NCBI GenBank assembly: GCA_948470905.1
Contig: CAOKQK010000025.1
Span: forward strand, 1 to 42,280
DNA: 42,280 bases
Source: an uncultured Lachnospiraceae bacterium
GTDB taxonomy: Bacteria; Bacillota; Clostridia; Lachnospirales; Lachnospiraceae
Direction of reading: 5' to 3'
The notes under the pieces were generated by a model. That model was not told the origin of the DNA, ran no database searches, and was given only the letters and a program-made list of their open reading frames with translations. Of this stretch, positions 30,752-36,044 are shown piece after piece. Positions within the stretch are counted from its first letter, which is position 1. Every line of letters starts with the position of its first letter. Made by a program: the position numbers and the translations under genes.

Positions 30752-32059
30752 ATGGAACCAATTTTGATCAGTAGTCTTGACATTTCCAGGGCTGGGAAAA
30801 ACTGTAAGATATTGCTGGGGGATATTGATGGGGACGGGCGTATGGAGTTAGTCTGCGCCCAGCCTGACGGAGGGATCGACGACCGTTATGTGCCCCATAT
30901 GGTGGTTTGCCTGACGGCGTTTTCCCTTACGGGGGAGCTTCTGTGGCAGGCAGGCGAGCCTGTGGCGCAGCCGGGTGGGCCCGGATCAGATTACCCGGTG
31001 CAGATAGCTGACATTGACGGAGACGGAAGGCTTGAGGTTCTTGCCGTTATGGATAAGACTCTTTTTGTGCTGGACGGCGCAGACGGACAGGTGAAGAAGT
31101 CATTTTCATTAAAAAACCTTCCGCAGCTTGCCTCCAGCGACCCCAGGTTTCCACAGGGCGAAGGCTGCCCCAATGCTCACGACTGTATCATTGTTGCAAA
31201 TCTGCGGGGAAAGGATACGCCTCAGGATATTATATTGAAAGACCGCTATGAAAACATGTGGGCATTGGACGGGGACTTCAACCTGCTCTGGACCCACAGC
31301 GGCAATGTGGGGCATTTCCCTCTTGCCTGCGATATCAACGGGGACGGCCGGGACGAGGTGATGGCGGGCTACGACCTGCTTTCCTCAGAGGGGAAAGTCA
31401 TGTGGTCCTGCAAGGATCTGGAGGATCATGCGGACTGTCTCTGGATGGGGGACGTCAACGGTGACGGAAAGCCTGAAATGTGCGTGGGAGGCAGTGTCAC
31501 CTGCCTCTATGACGCAGAGGGGAAAGAGCTGTGGCGATACACCGGCTCCATCGAATCCCAGCATGTGGCACTTGGAAAATTTCTGCCGGACAGCCCGGGA
31601 CTGCAGGTGGCAGGTCTGGACAGGATACGCAGAGGCGACGGTCACAAGGGGCAGCATGACGGCAAGGATGGCATGTTCCTCTTAGACTGCCAGGGCAGAG
31701 AGATTTGGAAAGAGGACCGCAGGACAAAAGGCTGGCTCACCATTGTCAACACCTACCGCAACTGGGCGGGGGAGGGAAGGGACTATATTCTCGCCTACCG
31801 CAGAGGAGGCGGGGTGAAGCCGACGCTTTACAACGGGGAGATGGAGGCTGTGGTCACATTCCCTGAGGATGGTTATGTGCTGAGCGGAGATCTGTTTGGG
31901 AGGAACTGTGAGGACGCGGTCATTTACGCTGACGGAAAGGCATGGATCTACTCAGGGCTGCCCTATGACCTGACCCGGAAGCCTTCCGGCAGGCCAGTTC
32001 CCCAGACAGGCAGGCTTTACCGCTCCACCCTGTATCCGGGGTGCGTGTATGGGGAGTGA
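30752..32059 (+). CDS. FG-GAP/VCBS-repeat propeller protein, rhamnogalacturonan-lyase-like
   Basis: 435 residues from the ATG at 30752, with GGAG 7 nt upstream; an ATG at 30722 lacks a site. At least four calcium-binding loops of the form DxDGDGxxE are visible: LLGDIDGDGRMEL, IADIDGDGRLEV, CDINGDGRDEV and GDVNGDGKPEM. These belong to a beta-propeller related to the large domain of PL11 rhamnogalacturonan lyases, but the chain is shorter than those (~600 residues) and has no signal peptide. It may be a small cytosolic lyase, a binding protein or a non-catalytic relative. It follows the GH2 gene by about 130 nt and precedes the DUF1961 gene. Confidence 0.7.
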   Translation: MEPILISSLDISRAGKNCKILLGDIDGDGRMELVCAQPDGGIDDRYVPHMVVCLTAFSLTGELLWQAGEPVAQPGGPGSDYPVQIADIDGDGRLEVLAVMDKTLFVLDGADGQVKKSFSLKNLPQLASSDPRFPQGEGCPNAHDCIIVANLRGKDTPQDIILKDRYENMWALDGDFNLLWTHSGNVGHFPLACDINGDGRDEVMAGYDLLSSEGKVMWSCKDLEDHADCLWMGDVNGDGKPEMCVGGSVTCLYDAEGKELWRYTGSIESQHVALGKFLPDSPGLQVAGLDRIRRGDGHKGQHDGKDGMFLLDCQGREIWKEDRRTKGWLTIVNTYRNWAGEGRDYILAYRRGGGVKPTLYNGEMEAVVTFPEDGYVLSGDLFGRNCEDAVIYADGKAWIYSGLPYDLTRKPSGRPVPQTGRLYRSTLYPGCVYGE

Positions 32060-32121
32060 GCCCAAACCAGGGGGGCATAGAAGTGCAGAGAGCGGAACAA
32101 GTTCCCGCAGGCGGGAACTGG
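32060..32121 (+). repeat. Partial copy (3' end) of the nested-hairpin element
   Basis: Starting right after the FG-GAP gene, the sequence GGGGGGCATAGAAGTGCAG matches the 3' arm of the full copies. It is followed by a perfect 8-bp hairpin GTTCCCGC/GCGGGAAC (32101-32118). The 5' arm is absent, so this is a decayed or truncated unit that starts the array. Confidence 0.75.
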
Positions 32122-32126
32122 AAAAC

Positions 32127-32230
32127 AGTCTCGGAACGGAGTTGCCCCCGGAAGGAATTTCCAGCTGCATTTCCGGGCAGATGGAAATTCCTTCCAGCCC
32201 AAGGGGGCGTAGAAGTGCAGAGAGCGGAAC
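32127..32230 (+). repeat. Nested-hairpin element, copy 1
   Basis: Full unit: outer stem GTCTC with a slightly damaged GAGAgC partner, second stem GCCCCC/GGGGGC, then the 14-bp perfect stem GGAAGGAATTTCCA/TGGAAATTCCTTCC with an inner CTGC/GCAG hairpin. Copies 1 and 2 form a tandem with a 132-bp period. The linker hairpin that separates them is GTTCCCA/TGGGAAC (32233-32250); the equivalent hairpin before copy 1 is GTTCCCGC/GCGGGAAC, so this stem is kept while the bases differ. Confidence 0.85.
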
Positions 32231-32258
32231 AAGTTCCCATATGTGGGAACTGGAAAAC

Positions 32259-32362
32259 AGTCTCGGAACGGAGATGCCCCCGGAAGGAATTTCCAGCTGC
32301 ATTTCTGTGCAGATGGAAATTCCTTCCAGCCCAAAGGGGCATAGAAGTGTAGAGACGGAACT
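32259..32362 (+). repeat. Nested-hairpin element, copy 2 (upstream of the DUF1961 gene)
   Basis: Outer stem GTCTC (32260-32264)/GAGAC (32352-32356), a symmetric 9/9-nt purine-rich internal loop, second stem ATGCCCC (32274-32280)/GGGGCAT (32336-32342), 14-bp stem (32282-32295/32314-32327), inner CTGCA/TGCAG with a 6-nt loop. Only about 8 nt separate its end from the AGGAGG of the DUF1961 gene. Confidence 0.9.
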
Positions 32363-32383
32363 GGAATAGGAGGCATGTGAGAA

Positions 32384-33040
32384 ATGAAATTAATCTATGA
32401 AAATGCGTTGAGCTGTGAGGAGGACATCAGGGATTTTACTTTAGAGGGCAGCGCCAGGCTTTCTTTCCCGGAGGGGAAGTTGCGGATGGAGAATGCCATA
32501 AGTGCAGAGCAGGGGCAGAAGGCGAACTACGTGCTGTGGTGCCCGGTGGATTTTCCCTCTGATGTGAGGGTGGAGTGGAAGTTCCAGCCCCTCAAGGAGC
32601 CGGGGCTGGCGATCCTGTTTTTTGCTGCAAAGGGAAGAAACGGGGAGGACATCTTTGACGAGGCACTGGCAAAGAGGACAGGAGAGTATGTGCAGTACCA
32701 TCACGGTGATATTAATGCTTTCCATGTGTCATATTTCCGCAGAAAGGAGCCGGATGAGAGAGCGCTGCACACCTGCAACTTAAGAAAAAGCTATGGTTTT
32801 CATCTGGTGTCTCAGGGCGGGGATCCGATTCCTGATGCAGATGAGTGCAGTGGCATGTATAAGCTGGCGCTGGAGAAAAAGGGAAATCTGGTGCGGTTTC
32901 TGGTGGAGGAGGTCGAGGTCTTCCGCTTTGAGGATGACGGGGAGGCTTATGGCCCACTGCTTGGCGGCGGAAAGATTGGTTTCCGCCAGCTGGCACCCAT
33001 GATTGCGGAGTACGCGGATCTGAAAGTGTATGAGCTGTAA
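32384..33040 (+). CDS. DUF1961 (YesU-like) protein
   Basis: 218 residues, AGGAGG upstream, no signal peptide. The sequence is a beta-rich, concanavalin-like sandwich: MKLIYENALSCEEDI, LWCPVDFPSDVRVEWKFQPL, FHVSYFRRKEPDERALHTCN, and the end KIGFRQLAPMIAEYADLKVY. It matches DUF1961, whose best-known member is YesU in the Bacillus subtilis rhamnogalacturonan (yes) operon; its function there is unknown, probably oligosaccharide binding or processing. Its position after the FG-GAP gene supports the same pathway. Two copies of the nested-hairpin element fill the gap between the two genes. Confidence 0.8.
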   Translation: MKLIYENALSCEEDIRDFTLEGSARLSFPEGKLRMENAISAEQGQKANYVLWCPVDFPSDVRVEWKFQPLKEPGLAILFFAAKGRNGEDIFDEALAKRTGEYVQYHHGDINAFHVSYFRRKEPDERALHTCNLRKSYGFHLVSQGGDPIPDADECSGMYKLALEKKGNLVRFLVEEVEVFRFEDDGEAYGPLLGGGKIGFRQLAPMIAEYADLKVYEL

Positions 33041-33082
33041 ATTAATGTCTGCTGCCGTCTGGAGGTAACAGTTTGGTGAGCT

Positions 33083-33236
33083 GTCGCAACAGAGCCTAAG
33101 TCTGAAGACAGGTTGAATCGGGAATGCGCGATGGATTCTCGTATAAGGGAGTGTATTTTCGGGGTAATCTTGACCGTATAAGCCAGGTATTGGGAAATGT
33201 GCGGTGTTTTCAAGGCTGGCTTTGTGCGGTTGCGAC
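33083..33236. repeat. 154-bp segment bounded by 8-bp inverted ends
   Basis: GTCGCAAC (33083-33090) and GTTGCGAC (33229-33236) form perfect inverted ends in an otherwise gene-free gap (33041-33255). There is no transposase and no clear target duplication. It may be a very small non-autonomous element or a long stem. Confidence 0.3.
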
Positions 33237-33255
33237 ATTTTCAAGTAATAAAAAA

Positions 33256-33353
33256 AGTCTCGGAACGGGGAAGCCTACGGAAGGAATTTAAGACGCGTCA
33301 GCGGCAGAAAATCCTTCCAGCCCAAGGGGGCGTAGAAGTGTAGAGACGGGACT
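33256..33353 (+). repeat. Nested-hairpin element, copy 3 (divergent apical half)
   Basis: Outer stem GTCTC (33257-33261)/GAGAC (33343-33347) and the basal GGAAGGA/TCCTTCC stem are kept. The apical part is different: AATTTAAGACGC, loop GTCA, GCGGCAGAAAA. The second stem is weak. It belongs to the same apical variant as copy 5. Confidence 0.8.
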
Positions 33354-33360
33354 AAAAAAC

Positions 33361-33464
33361 AGTCTCGGAACGGAGATGCCCCCGGAAGGAATTTCCAGCT
33401 GCATTTGTGTGCAGATGGAAAATCCTTCCAGCCCAAAGGGGCATAGAAGTGTAGAGACGGAACT
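33361..33464 (+). repeat. Nested-hairpin element, copy 4 (upstream of ankyrin gene 1)
   Basis: 105-bp period from copy 3. Outer stem 33362-33366/33454-33458, second stem ATGCCCC (33376-33382)/GGGGCAT (33438-33444), and a long stem as in copy 2 with one A-A mismatch. About 8 nt separate its end from the AGGAGG of the ankyrin gene. Confidence 0.9.
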
Positions 33465-33484
33465 AAATTTAGGAGGAGTTTGAA

Positions 33485-34465
33485 ATGCAGTTGGATGATT
33501 TGTTTTTGAAGGCGTGTCAGAACGGGCAGAAAAGTGTGGTCATCACGTTTTTAAAAAAGGGTGGCATCAATGTTGACAAGAGAGACATGAATGGTTTCAC
33601 CCCTTTGCACCACGCGTGCAGGAAAGGTGCCAGGGATATTGTCAAGCTTCTGATTGAGAACAGTGCGGATGTGAACATGGCATCCAATACCAGCATCACA
33701 CCCTTGCATCTGGCGGCACAGCTGGGGAATCAGGAGATCATACAGTGCCTGTTGGATGCCGGGGCGGATATCAATGCCACAGATAAGGAGGGCAAGAGTG
33801 TCCTCATCTACAGTGTGCTGGCAAAGAAGGTAGAGGCGGCGAAGTATCTGATCGCCAAGGGAGCCGATGCGGCTGTCAAGGACAACGACAACAGGACGGC
33901 TCTGGATTATGCCAATGCGCTGGGGCTGCCGTATTTTGTGTCGGAGGTTTCCACAGATACCCTGGGGGAGACGGATGCTTACGGTAACACCCCCCTACAC
34001 CAGGCCAGCTTCAACGGACAGAGCGAGGTTGTGAAGGTGATGCTGGCGAAGGGGGAGGCTGATGTAAACGCTGTGAATAATGACGGGGAAACCCCACTGT
34101 TTGTGGCGGTGGACAGTAACAATATCTATGTCTCTGAGCTTCTGCTGGGGGCGGGGGCTCAGCCTGACAGGGCGACAAACGAGGGGGTCTGTCCCATCCA
34201 TGCAGCGGCAATGAATGGGAATGAGCACATGGTCGATGTGTTGATTAAGCATGGCGCGGATATTAACTGTCGGGATAAATACGGAGAGACTGCGCTGATC
34301 ATCGCAGCCAGGAAGGGTATGAACAATGTAGTGTCCGAGCTGACAGCGAAGGGGGCGGATGTTACCTGCGCCGATCAGGACGAACATACCGCCCTGTATT
34401 ATGCATCAGAGAGCGGCTTTAACGAGATCGTTGAGATATTGCTGATGGCTGGGGCTGAGTCATAA
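33485..34465 (+). CDS. Ankyrin-repeat protein 1
   Basis: 326 residues with AGGAGG 8-10 nt upstream. About nine ankyrin repeats of 33 residues cover nearly the whole chain, for example NGFTPLHHACRKGARDIVKL, TPLHLAAQLGNQEIIQCLLD and GETALIIAARKGMNNVV. There is no signal peptide, membrane segment or catalytic domain, so it is a soluble protein-binding protein. Its gene lies behind two nested-hairpin copies. The downstream neighbour is a second ankyrin gene. Confidence 0.9.
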   Translation: MQLDDLFLKACQNGQKSVVITFLKKGGINVDKRDMNGFTPLHHACRKGARDIVKLLIENSADVNMASNTSITPLHLAAQLGNQEIIQCLLDAGADINATDKEGKSVLIYSVLAKKVEAAKYLIAKGADAAVKDNDNRTALDYANALGLPYFVSEVSTDTLGETDAYGNTPLHQASFNGQSEVVKVMLAKGEADVNAVNNDGETPLFVAVDSNNIYVSELLLGAGAQPDRATNEGVCPIHAAAMNGNEHMVDVLIKHGADINCRDKYGETALIIAARKGMNNVVSELTAKGADVTCADQDEHTALYYASESGFNEIVEILLMAGAES

Positions 34466-34636
34466 AGTCAACAATCCCGTTGCAAGCAGCGGGGGATGTG
34501 ACCCTCGCGGCATTTGCCAAGGCCTTACAGGATTTGGCTCATTGCTCGCGGGAATCAAGGCAGGAGCTGTGGGCTGAAATATTTCCGCACCGGAGCCGGA
34601 GGTTCCGGCGTGGAAAACACAGACAGGACTTAAAAC

Positions 34637-34733
34637 AGCCTCGGAAACGGACACGCCCCGGAAGGAATTTAAGACGCGGGAGCGGCAGAAGTTACTTCCA
34701 GTCAGAGGGGCGAAGGAGAGCAGAGGCGGAACT
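34637..34733 (+). repeat. Nested-hairpin element, copy 5 (upstream of ankyrin gene 2)
   Basis: Outer stem GCCTC (34638-34642)/GAGGC (34723-34727) and second stem CGCCCC (34654-34659)/GGGGCG (34707-34712): both differ from copies 2 and 4 by paired changes that keep base pairing. The apical part is of the copy-3 type. A hairpin GCCGGA/TCCGGC (34595-34609) sits 5' of it, like the linker hairpins of copies 1 and 2. The rest of the gap (34466-34594) contains a CCCGTTG/CAGCGGG stem and no gene. Confidence 0.85.
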
Positions 34734-34772
34734 GGAATAAAAAAAGCGGGACTGGAATTAGGAGGTATACAG

Positions 34773-36044
34773 ATGGTAATCAATTACGAGGAGAGCAGGG
34801 AAAACGTAGAGAGGGTGCTGGCAGGGGAGCTGGATCCGGAGGCGGCGGAGTTGTGGCCTCTGATCTACTATCTGACGGTCATGATCCGGGATCCCAAAAA
34901 TGACAGGGAGTATGTGGACAAAAGCCTTACGCTTTTTGAAAAGCTGCTGCAAAAGGTGGACCAGGACGAGGATGACGAGATGGAGATGGTCATCGAGGCG
35001 GCGGACAGTATCATCGGTTGGGAAGGGCCGGTGGAGAGGGTGCTGGAGCTGATAGCGGAGGCGGGGGTGAGCTTTACCGAGCCAAGATATTATGAGAGGG
35101 AGCTTACCAATCTTAGGGACCACTTTCTGGATTACAGGGTCCGCATTGAGACAGTGGTTAAGATGGCGGAGCTGGGCATCGATCTGAACGAGGCTCTGAT
35201 CAAGGGAAAGACGCCCGCGTATATTATTGCCCACAAGGAGAGGGTGAAGACCTGGGGGAGCGGCGCCAACGAGATTGAGGAGAGCTATGCAAAGATGGTG
35301 GAGGAATACTTCAGCGTGGAGTCCATGGAGGCGCTGAATGCCGAGGGAACCTCCGCGGCCCATGAGGCGGTCAGGCGTGACCATCATGAAATGCTGGCGG
35401 CGATGCTGAAAAAGGGCATTGATGTGAATGTCACAGAGGACCAGCCCCAGGTGGCGGGAACTACAATGCTGATGACGGCTTGTGCCTACAGTTTCCTTGA
35501 TACTGTGAAGATGCTGATGGACGCCGGGGCGGATGACAGCCTGAAGAATGTGGCGGACGAGACGGCGGCGCATATAGCGGTTTCCATAAAGGTCCGTTAT
35601 AAGGAAATAACCAACGAGGAGAGGGCGGAGATGCTGAAGTGCCTGAAAAACATTGACATTCCAGGCAAAAACGGCAGGACACCCCTGATGACTGCACAGA
35701 ACTATGACCTGCATGGCTCCCACACGCTGACGCCTGTGTTTATTGAGAAAGGCGCGGATGTAAACCGGGTGGATGACAACGGAAATACGGCTCTTATGCT
35801 TCATGCGGAGTGGTACTGCGACAAGGATGTATTCAAGGCGATGGTGAAGGCGGGATATGATGTCAACGCCAGGAACAAGGCGGGAAATACGGTGCTTCAC
35901 TATGCAATGAAAAACAACAGCAGTGAAGTGGCGGTCTACCTTATCAAGAAAGGTGCGGATGTAAACGTCGCCAACGAGAAGCAGGTGACTCCCATGCAGA
36001 TCGCGGTGGAGAAAGGCATGGACGAGGTGCTGGCGTTCCTGTAA
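34773..36044 (+). CDS. Ankyrin-repeat protein 2 with a helical N-terminal domain
   Basis: 423 residues, AGGAGG 8 nt before the ATG. Residues 1-180 are helical and acidic, without a recognised domain. From about 185 to 423 there are ankyrin repeats: GTSAAHEAVRRDHHEMLAAM, GTTMLMTACAYSFLDTVKML, NGRTPLMTAQNYDL, GNTALMLHAEW, GNTVLHYAMKNNSSEVAVYL. Soluble, probably a protein-interaction partner of unknown target. It is separated from the TerB-type operon downstream by a 361-nt gap with two large hairpins. Confidence 0.85.
   Translation: MVINYEESRENVERVLAGELDPEAAELWPLIYYLTVMIRDPKNDREYVDKSLTLFEKLLQKVDQDEDDEMEMVIEAADSIIGWEGPVERVLELIAEAGVSFTEPRYYERELTNLRDHFLDYRVRIETVVKMAELGIDLNEALIKGKTPAYIIAHKERVKTWGSGANEIEESYAKMVEEYFSVESMEALNAEGTSAAHEAVRRDHHEMLAAMLKKGIDVNVTEDQPQVAGTTMLMTACAYSFLDTVKMLMDAGADDSLKNVADETAAHIAVSIKVRYKEITNEERAEMLKCLKNIDIPGKNGRTPLMTAQNYDLHGSHTLTPVFIEKGADVNRVDDNGNTALMLHAEWYCDKDVFKAMVKAGYDVNARNKAGNTVLHYAMKNNSSEVAVYLIKKGADVNVANEKQVTPMQIAVEKGMDEVLAFL

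Follow-up and report, generated by a model that had tools for sequence, protein, structure and literature searches.

A family of covarying hairpin repeats upstream of Shine-Dalgarno sequences in a Lachnospiraceae genome

Bacterial genomes commonly contain small palindromic repeats, few of which, as far as we know, have had their targeting or mobilizers worked out. We describe here a family of hairpin repeats noticed in a 42,280-nt stretch of DNA (hereafter the window; positions 1 to 42,280, forward strand, of contig CAOKQK010000025.1, assembly GCA_948470905.1) from an uncultured Lachnospiraceae bacterium. Copies lie mostly just 5′ of the Shine-Dalgarno sequence (SD) of a gene, and the family points to a new kind of small mobile element; no earlier description of it or of SD-targeted repeats was found in open-licence PMC papers, an absence that is weak evidence.

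REP/REPIN elements share with the family a palindromic, extragenic and multi-copy character, the lack of target duplication, and the company of still smaller palindromes; they differ in that the hairpin family has one prevailing orientation relative to the gene and is not tracked by genes for IS200/IS605 (Y1) transposases. Pneumococcal BOX elements, judging from excerpts of PMC3049150, are likewise high-copy and modular, patchy across related species, strongly structured as RNA and without ties to a gene class, and in pneumococcus they are co-transcribed; they are set apart by placement, BOX being enriched between convergent genes at varying distances, whereas the hairpin family is nearly always co-oriented with the next gene and mostly ends at an SD. 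ERIC/IRU/RU-1 (127 bp), RU-2 (YPAL) and RU-3 are, in a similar way, stem-loops of about 100–170 bp dispersed in one bacterial family. ERIC, as presented in excerpts of PMC2229807, has terminal inverted repeats, TA ends and target duplications, whereas the family described here has strict SD position and neither detected duplication nor TA ends. Next to BOX, RUP, SPRITE and ERIC, as far as these excerpts describe them (PMC3049150, PMC2229807), SD position and prevailing single orientation are what stand out. Cis-regulatory leader RNAs, too, carry covarying, conserved structure directly 5′ of start codons, but the hairpin family has no shared regulon in our sample and no visible expression platform, and its sites are mostly unshared between species.

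Extent of the Family and Pairing Constraint

The window is contig C25 of a 3.7-Mb draft genome (157 contigs, 90% complete). When one of its copies (copy 4 in Table 1) was used as a BLAST query, 52 matches were found in the same genome, three of them being reverse-strand matches to the palindromic core of copies already counted. A covariance model, R1, built on 26 copies (alignment A1), identified at least 135 copies of the roughly 105-base repeat in this genome, a number that is a floor, R1 having scored 150 of 2,452 first-look candidates. These copies form 119 clusters, of which 16 contain two copies and none contains copies on both strands.

Distribution among relatives is patchy. The family was found in 14 of 61 genomes of the genus and, in a sample of nearest relatives, in 7 of 41 genomes (the window's own genome included in both counts), with no match among 16 genomes from other families. 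A broader model, R2, was run across the bacterial family with at most nine candidates scored per genome, and matched 7 of 397 genomes, equivalent to 7 of 334 genera, own genome again included. A pattern scan of GTDB contigs found the repeat in at least 12 assemblies, titled Lachnospiraceae, Blautia, D16-50 or uncultured bacterium, and an end-anchored pattern gave no match in viral contigs. A preliminary description of the window had suggested searching related genomes with such a model, and the search has revealed a family that is genome-wide here and patchy in relatives. The same description recognized no known RNA class in the repeats, and indeed there is no Rfam match at the gathering cut-off in the window (which also has no tRNA), nor any at E 1 or less in 32000–34800.

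Each unit consists of 5′ AAACAG, an imperfect hairpin of about 95 nt, GGAACT, and a tail of about 5 nt. In an alignment of copies from other genomes (A3; 150 of 163 matches, 140 distinct), changes on both sides were seen in 26 of 29 pairs, against 18.1 when shuffled; double-change cells numbered 514, compared with 105.5 in shuffled controls and no more than 101 in slid ones, and 95.4% of cells pair, in an alignment fitted to the structure model, which favours covariation. The alignment for the own genome was drawn from 100 of 122 loci. The covarying stems first proposed from the window alone are thus borne out, and the covarying family of small palindromic elements is real. The paired changes on which that proposal drew (GTCTC/GAGAC to GCCTC/GAGGC and ATGCCCC/GGGGCAT to CGCCCC/GGGGCG) are present in the sequence, as are its two apical forms, to which copies elsewhere in the genome add a third body, GGGAG-AATTTTCAGATGCG.

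Several copies from other genera have an outer stem of GCATC/GATGC or GCAAC/GTTGC in place of GYCTC/GAGRC, and at least four of the five outer pairs are present in 105 of 115 hits that have both ends and an SD, most of these loci having been found by model or pattern. The internal loop, CGGA/GAAG, resembles a kind of purine-rich 3x3 loop, with sheared G-A pairs, that is known from RNA. Sequence type differs by genome, each genome, as judged by eye, having its own.

On the sense strand G-U pairs outnumber A-C, by 102 to 57 in own-genome copies and by 83 to 26 in those of other genomes, after removal of 18 of 139 and 14 of 150 rows (duplicates, or rows with fewer than 24 pair cells) and with two full-length opposite-strand self-matches (L026 and L009) retained; a single pair accounts for 22 G-U cells out of 102 in the first set and 27 out of 83 in the second, and the sequences are related to one another. 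This makes the asymmetry no more than suggestive; the form under constraint that it hints at is the sense RNA or the corresponding DNA strand.

Both the covariation and the G-U excess speak for a leader RNA beneficial to the host, that is, a rod that stabilizes or separately processes the mRNA of the downstream cistron and is kept for that reason, possibly a mobile element taken into service. The nearest upstream gene, moreover, is co-oriented at 84 of 106 clusters and opposite at 22, so that many copies may lie within operons, and ERIC RNA is reported, in excerpts of PMC2229807, to change mRNA stability according to its orientation. Set against this are the patchy distribution, the few shared sites, the lack of a gene class in our sample, and a G-U asymmetry open to the limits just given, and we regard a host-beneficial leader as possible though rather unlikely.

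The units vary in composition. Two copies have lost the apical hairpin and kept both ends and the outer stem (L059, 1629–1683, and L238, 7554–7598), and inspection by eye found at least six 3′-arm pieces upstream of a complete copy and two 5′-arm pieces (L109 and L144). Upstream of infA in two relatives (locus L351 of G075 and L349 of G056) are short hairpins that combine AAACAGC...GCGGRACT ends with unrelated bodies and lie a short way 5′ of the SD. It may be the ends, rather than the stem sequence, that define the family. A repeated module, GGAATARTCCAGCTAAGAARTGTCAAGAGGAAATTTA, stands directly 5′ of the element at two genes of the own genome (G000 C12:43282 and C27:28306), and a stretch resembling it occurs in a further assembly (L214); the module is possibly one more building block.

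Orientation and Spacing Relative to Shine-Dalgarno Sequences

When gene calling takes in both strands, the element and its nearest downstream gene point the same way at 99 of 107 clusters, six clusters without a called gene and six with less than 300 nt of DNA having been left out. Five of the eight opposite calls are probably antisense frames, given a co-oriented start no more than 40 nt away. Co-oriented starts, the only kind considered, were found within 400 nt for 113 of the 119 clusters, the other six running off the contig; the start lies within 27 nt at 55 clusters, at 28–47 nt at 30, at 48–65 nt at nine, and further away at 19. Among 80 clusters in 12 other assemblies, a start lies within 60 nt in 67 of 76 (the other four run off the contig).

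AGGAG or GGAGG occurs within 90 nt past the element's 3′ end in 91 of the 113 clusters, against 5 of 111 in a mirror control read outward from the 5′ end on the other strand. The spacing is concentrated in three bands that account for 76 of the 113, namely 5–6 nt (42 clusters), 24–29 nt (26) and 42–47 nt (8), and these steps of about 20 nt fit the presence of one or two 20-nt small hairpins, AGTTCCC-N6-GGGAACT, between element and SD. There are 67 such hairpins in the own genome, against none for the reversed pattern. Of 48 distinct sense-strand cases in the retrieved loci, 14 end 5–6 nt before AGGAG/GGAGG, and 28 have no such motif within 20 nt, several of them preceding a further element. 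The full hexamer AGGAGG is the SD of 56 of 92 element-bearing genes, compared with 20 of 205 other open reading frames; the start calls behind both figures are rough and favour starts with a good SD.

A bias towards harmless positions would also arise if insertion took place anywhere and the survivors were the copies that left SD and start codon intact. Selection must act, because element-bearing genes include rpsR, accD, murD, glmS and an ileS-like gene, and a few clusters do sit elsewhere than at an SD. Selection against harm, however, predicts a minimum distance, not a sharp 5–6-nt class with further steps of about 20 nt, and it does not readily give the single orientation or the AGGAGG enrichment; furthermore, the pneumococcal BOX, RUP and SPRITE repeats, which are read as parasitic, are over-represented between convergent genes (excerpts of PMC3049150). 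Random insertion followed by selection is therefore an unlikely explanation of the pattern.

Predicted accessibility of the SD is 0.589 with the element and 0.593 without it (n = 79; p = 0.47 when compared with removal, 0.24 with shuffling). In 31900–34900 the sole terminator-like site predicted, at 32601, is not at a copy, and no promoter-like site was predicted. An expression platform, whether terminator or SD sequestration, was rejected, since the predictions show neither. Thirty downstream genes were sampled from 91 eligible ones, of which 12 had a match at 1e-30 (murD, hflC, accD, ileS, pyrF, purB, pepT, glmS, rpsR, hisA, a response regulator and a rhamnogalacturonidase, the matches for ileS, the response regulator and the rhamnogalacturonidase falling under the curated cut-off) and 18 had none; no shared pathway or gene class appeared among the 30. 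A 5′ leader position, conserved structure and tandem copies would all suit an ordinary class of riboswitch or attenuator controlling translation or termination, but such a class is highly improbable given that there is no Rfam match, no predicted SD sequestration, no common pathway in the sample and no terminator-like site at the copies in this part of the window.

Insertion Sites and Probable Mode of Spread

At rpsR the own genome reads GATTATGTG, then the element with a small hairpin, then TAGGAGG. The comparison covered 30 loci out of 55 matching genomes (the own locus, one cut 14 nt upstream, and 28 that are informative), and in none of the 28 informative relatives is the element present, whereas all have a native SD after the end of ssb and a short spacer; ATAGGAGG is found in 19 of them and AGGAGG in 23, and one (G044) has a different short insert. 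In 27 of 29 relatives the 400 nt upstream of infA show no element end. At der, 170-nt windows of the other 29 loci contain no full element, though those of G044 and G053 include module-like stretches; the element is present at der in another assembly, JAMPFQ.

C45:25902 and C4:65574, nearly identical copies that belong to different genes, cease to be similar at AAACAG on the left, whereas on the right similarity extends through CAAAA and the SD and no further. No target-site duplication was detected in 43 single copies without visible upstream remnants, the suffix-match sum being 105 against 98 when shuffled, with 247 of 2,000 shuffles as high. Among 76 element-bearing genes of other genomes, at least seven, four of them from JAMPFQ, match an element-bearing gene of the own genome at 60% protein identity or more, a lower bound in that own copies are a floor and loci are partial. 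Some insertion sites may be old.

The preliminary description had offered two readings, a cis-acting RNA and a dispersed palindromic repeat mobilized by an element elsewhere. The dispersed mobile repeat suits the data better than does a cis-acting RNA of the ordinary sort, because sites are mostly unshared, an empty site is visible and the sampled genes have no common function; a dispersed palindromic family it is, with no mobilizer identified. What endures of the cis-acting reading is that the RNA form may matter, given the element's place in 5′ leaders and the excess of G-U over A-C on the mRNA-sense strand.

We consider it probable that the repeats are a family of non-autonomous mobile palindromes that insert just 5′ of the SD, in one orientation and without target duplication, and are transcribed as a neutral RNA rod. 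What carries this reading is the copy number, the prevailing orientation, the spacing, one clean empty site, the absence of detectable duplication and the pairing constraint, all of which are observed. In the mechanism that we envisage, a trans-acting enzyme would insert a unit immediately 5′ of a gene's SD hexamer, in a single orientation and with no duplication of the target, the SD (AGGAGG, or CCTCCT on the other strand) presumably being what is recognized. Later units, or minimal hairpins of 20 nt, would enter between the resident unit and the SD, and arrays would thus grow at the SD side as the far copies decay. The unit, which is presumably transcribed, would fold into its own rod and leave the SD as free as before, so that the gene would not be harmed.

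A more specific form of this proposal can be put forward tentatively: a transposition system that targets the SD itself (AGGAGG/CCTCCT) in one orientation and with near base-exact spacing, its mobilizer being of an unrecognized type, perhaps RNA- or ribosome-linked, which acts on the conserved AAACAG and GGAACT ends, the palindrome between them being free to change.

Movement by the RAYT or IS200/IS605 (Y1) transposases of REP/REPIN elements would suit repeats that are palindromic, intergenic, of high copy number, free of target duplication and accompanied by 20-bp palindromes. Y1 genes, however, were found in 5 of 12 carriers and in 5 of 10 non-carriers tested, and none was found in carriers G021, G056 and G057 (18, 7 and 16 matches, respectively; drafts 97–98% complete), and we hold this explanation to be very unlikely. 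The one Y1 gene found in the own genome (L282 1474–1950; G000 C39) is a stop-interrupted IS200-like copy with unrelated flanking hairpins. That Y1 does not track the family, and that the own Y1 gene is interrupted and has other ends, argues against REP/RAYT. REP/REPIN elements also carry, beside the palindrome, a conserved tag of GTAG or CGTC (excerpts of PMC3733652), and no tag conserved in this way was seen by eye in the aligned copies. Many own copies do have GTAG within GCGTAGAAG, but there it forms part of a paired stem, and other species have GCATAG, GCTGAAG and other sequences in its stead, so that it does not qualify as a conserved tag. A classical miniature inverted-repeat transposable element of the ERIC/RUP type was likewise rejected, there being no detectable target-site duplication and, as judged by eye, no terminal inverted repeats or TA ends: neither AAACA at one end nor GGAACT-N5 at the other is paired or inverted, and pairing starts inside them.

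Several observations weigh against the mobile palindrome as we picture it. An opposite gene comes next at C16:17258, C52:10238 and C68:15603, which appear to be real exceptions to the orientation; in 19 of the 113 clusters the chosen start is more than 65 nt away, in a search restricted to co-oriented starts; and the AGGAGG enrichment is subject to the roughness of the start calls. At rpsR, which is the sole empty site resolved to the base, the own genome appears to have lost or altered three or four host bases beside the SD, where many relatives read AGA. The SD of infA in the own genome is unlike that of most relatives, and 2 of the 29 relatives at this gene (G056 and G075) have short variants with the same ends. 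At der a variable spacer prevents the precise alignment of an empty site. The sharing of 7 of 76 sites may exceed chance, which would be about 4% on the assumption of 135 in some 3,300 genes. Finally, no mobilizing enzyme was found.

Copies in the Window and Significance of the Family

The five full copies and one partial copy of the preliminary description are all present, both in the sequence and in the R1 search, and are listed in Table 1 with the small hairpins and SDs beside them.

Table 1. Repeat units, small hairpins and SDs in the window
Feature	Positions	Strand	Basis and remarks
5′-truncated copy, 3′ arm only	32060–32099	+	Sequence; starts right after the upstream stop TGA (32057–32059)
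Small hairpin AGTTCCC-N6-GGGAACT, 20 nt	32100–32119	+	Sequence, pattern; earlier bounds of 32060–32121 included this hairpin
Full element, copy 1	32123–32231	+	Model R1, 100 bits
Small hairpin, 20 nt	32232–32251	+	Sequence, pattern
Full element, copy 2, SD-proximal	32255–32362	+	Model R1, 115.6 bits
SD AGGAGG of DUF1961 gene (ATG 32384; Pfam PF09224)	32368–32373	+	5 nt past the element's GGAACT
Full element, copy 3, short apical form	33252–33353	+	Model R1, 73.8 bits
Full element, copy 4, SD-proximal	33357–33464	+	Model R1, 111.4 bits
SD AGGAGG of ankyrin gene (ATG 33485)	33471–33476	+	6 nt past the element
Full element, copy 5, short apical form, then 3′-end remnant GCGGGACTGGAATT	34633–34733	+	Model R1, 80.4 bits
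SD AGGAGG of second ankyrin gene (ATG 34773)	34760–34765	+	Sequence

The segment 33350–33490, which contains copy 4, has a predicted folding energy of -50.7 kcal/mol, against a mean of -31.8 for shuffles (z = -5.35). GGAAGGAATTT occurs 10 times in the window (at most one mismatch, both strands), against 1.18 expected, and one of the 10 occurrences lies outside the repeats. An element precedes each of the two consecutive ankyrin-repeat genes (33485–36044, + strand), both of which match PDC-M72A, a candidate model of PADLOC. Just 3′ of these repeat-flanked genes lies a Shango anti-phage system (36406–41952, + strand), with PADLOC matches to SngA (TerB domains; E = 7e-67), SngB (BrxC/D ATPase; 2e-179) and SngC (DEAD helicase; 3e-220).

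If SD-targeted transposition proves to be true, it would give every gene a safe harbour just 5′ of its ribosome-binding site, and a family adjacent to SDs, those of essential genes among them, would stand as a clear example of safe-harbour targeting in bacteria. The family would also place a hairpin in the 5′ leaders of about 100 genes simultaneously, opening both its effect on mRNA and the hunt for its enzyme to direct tests.

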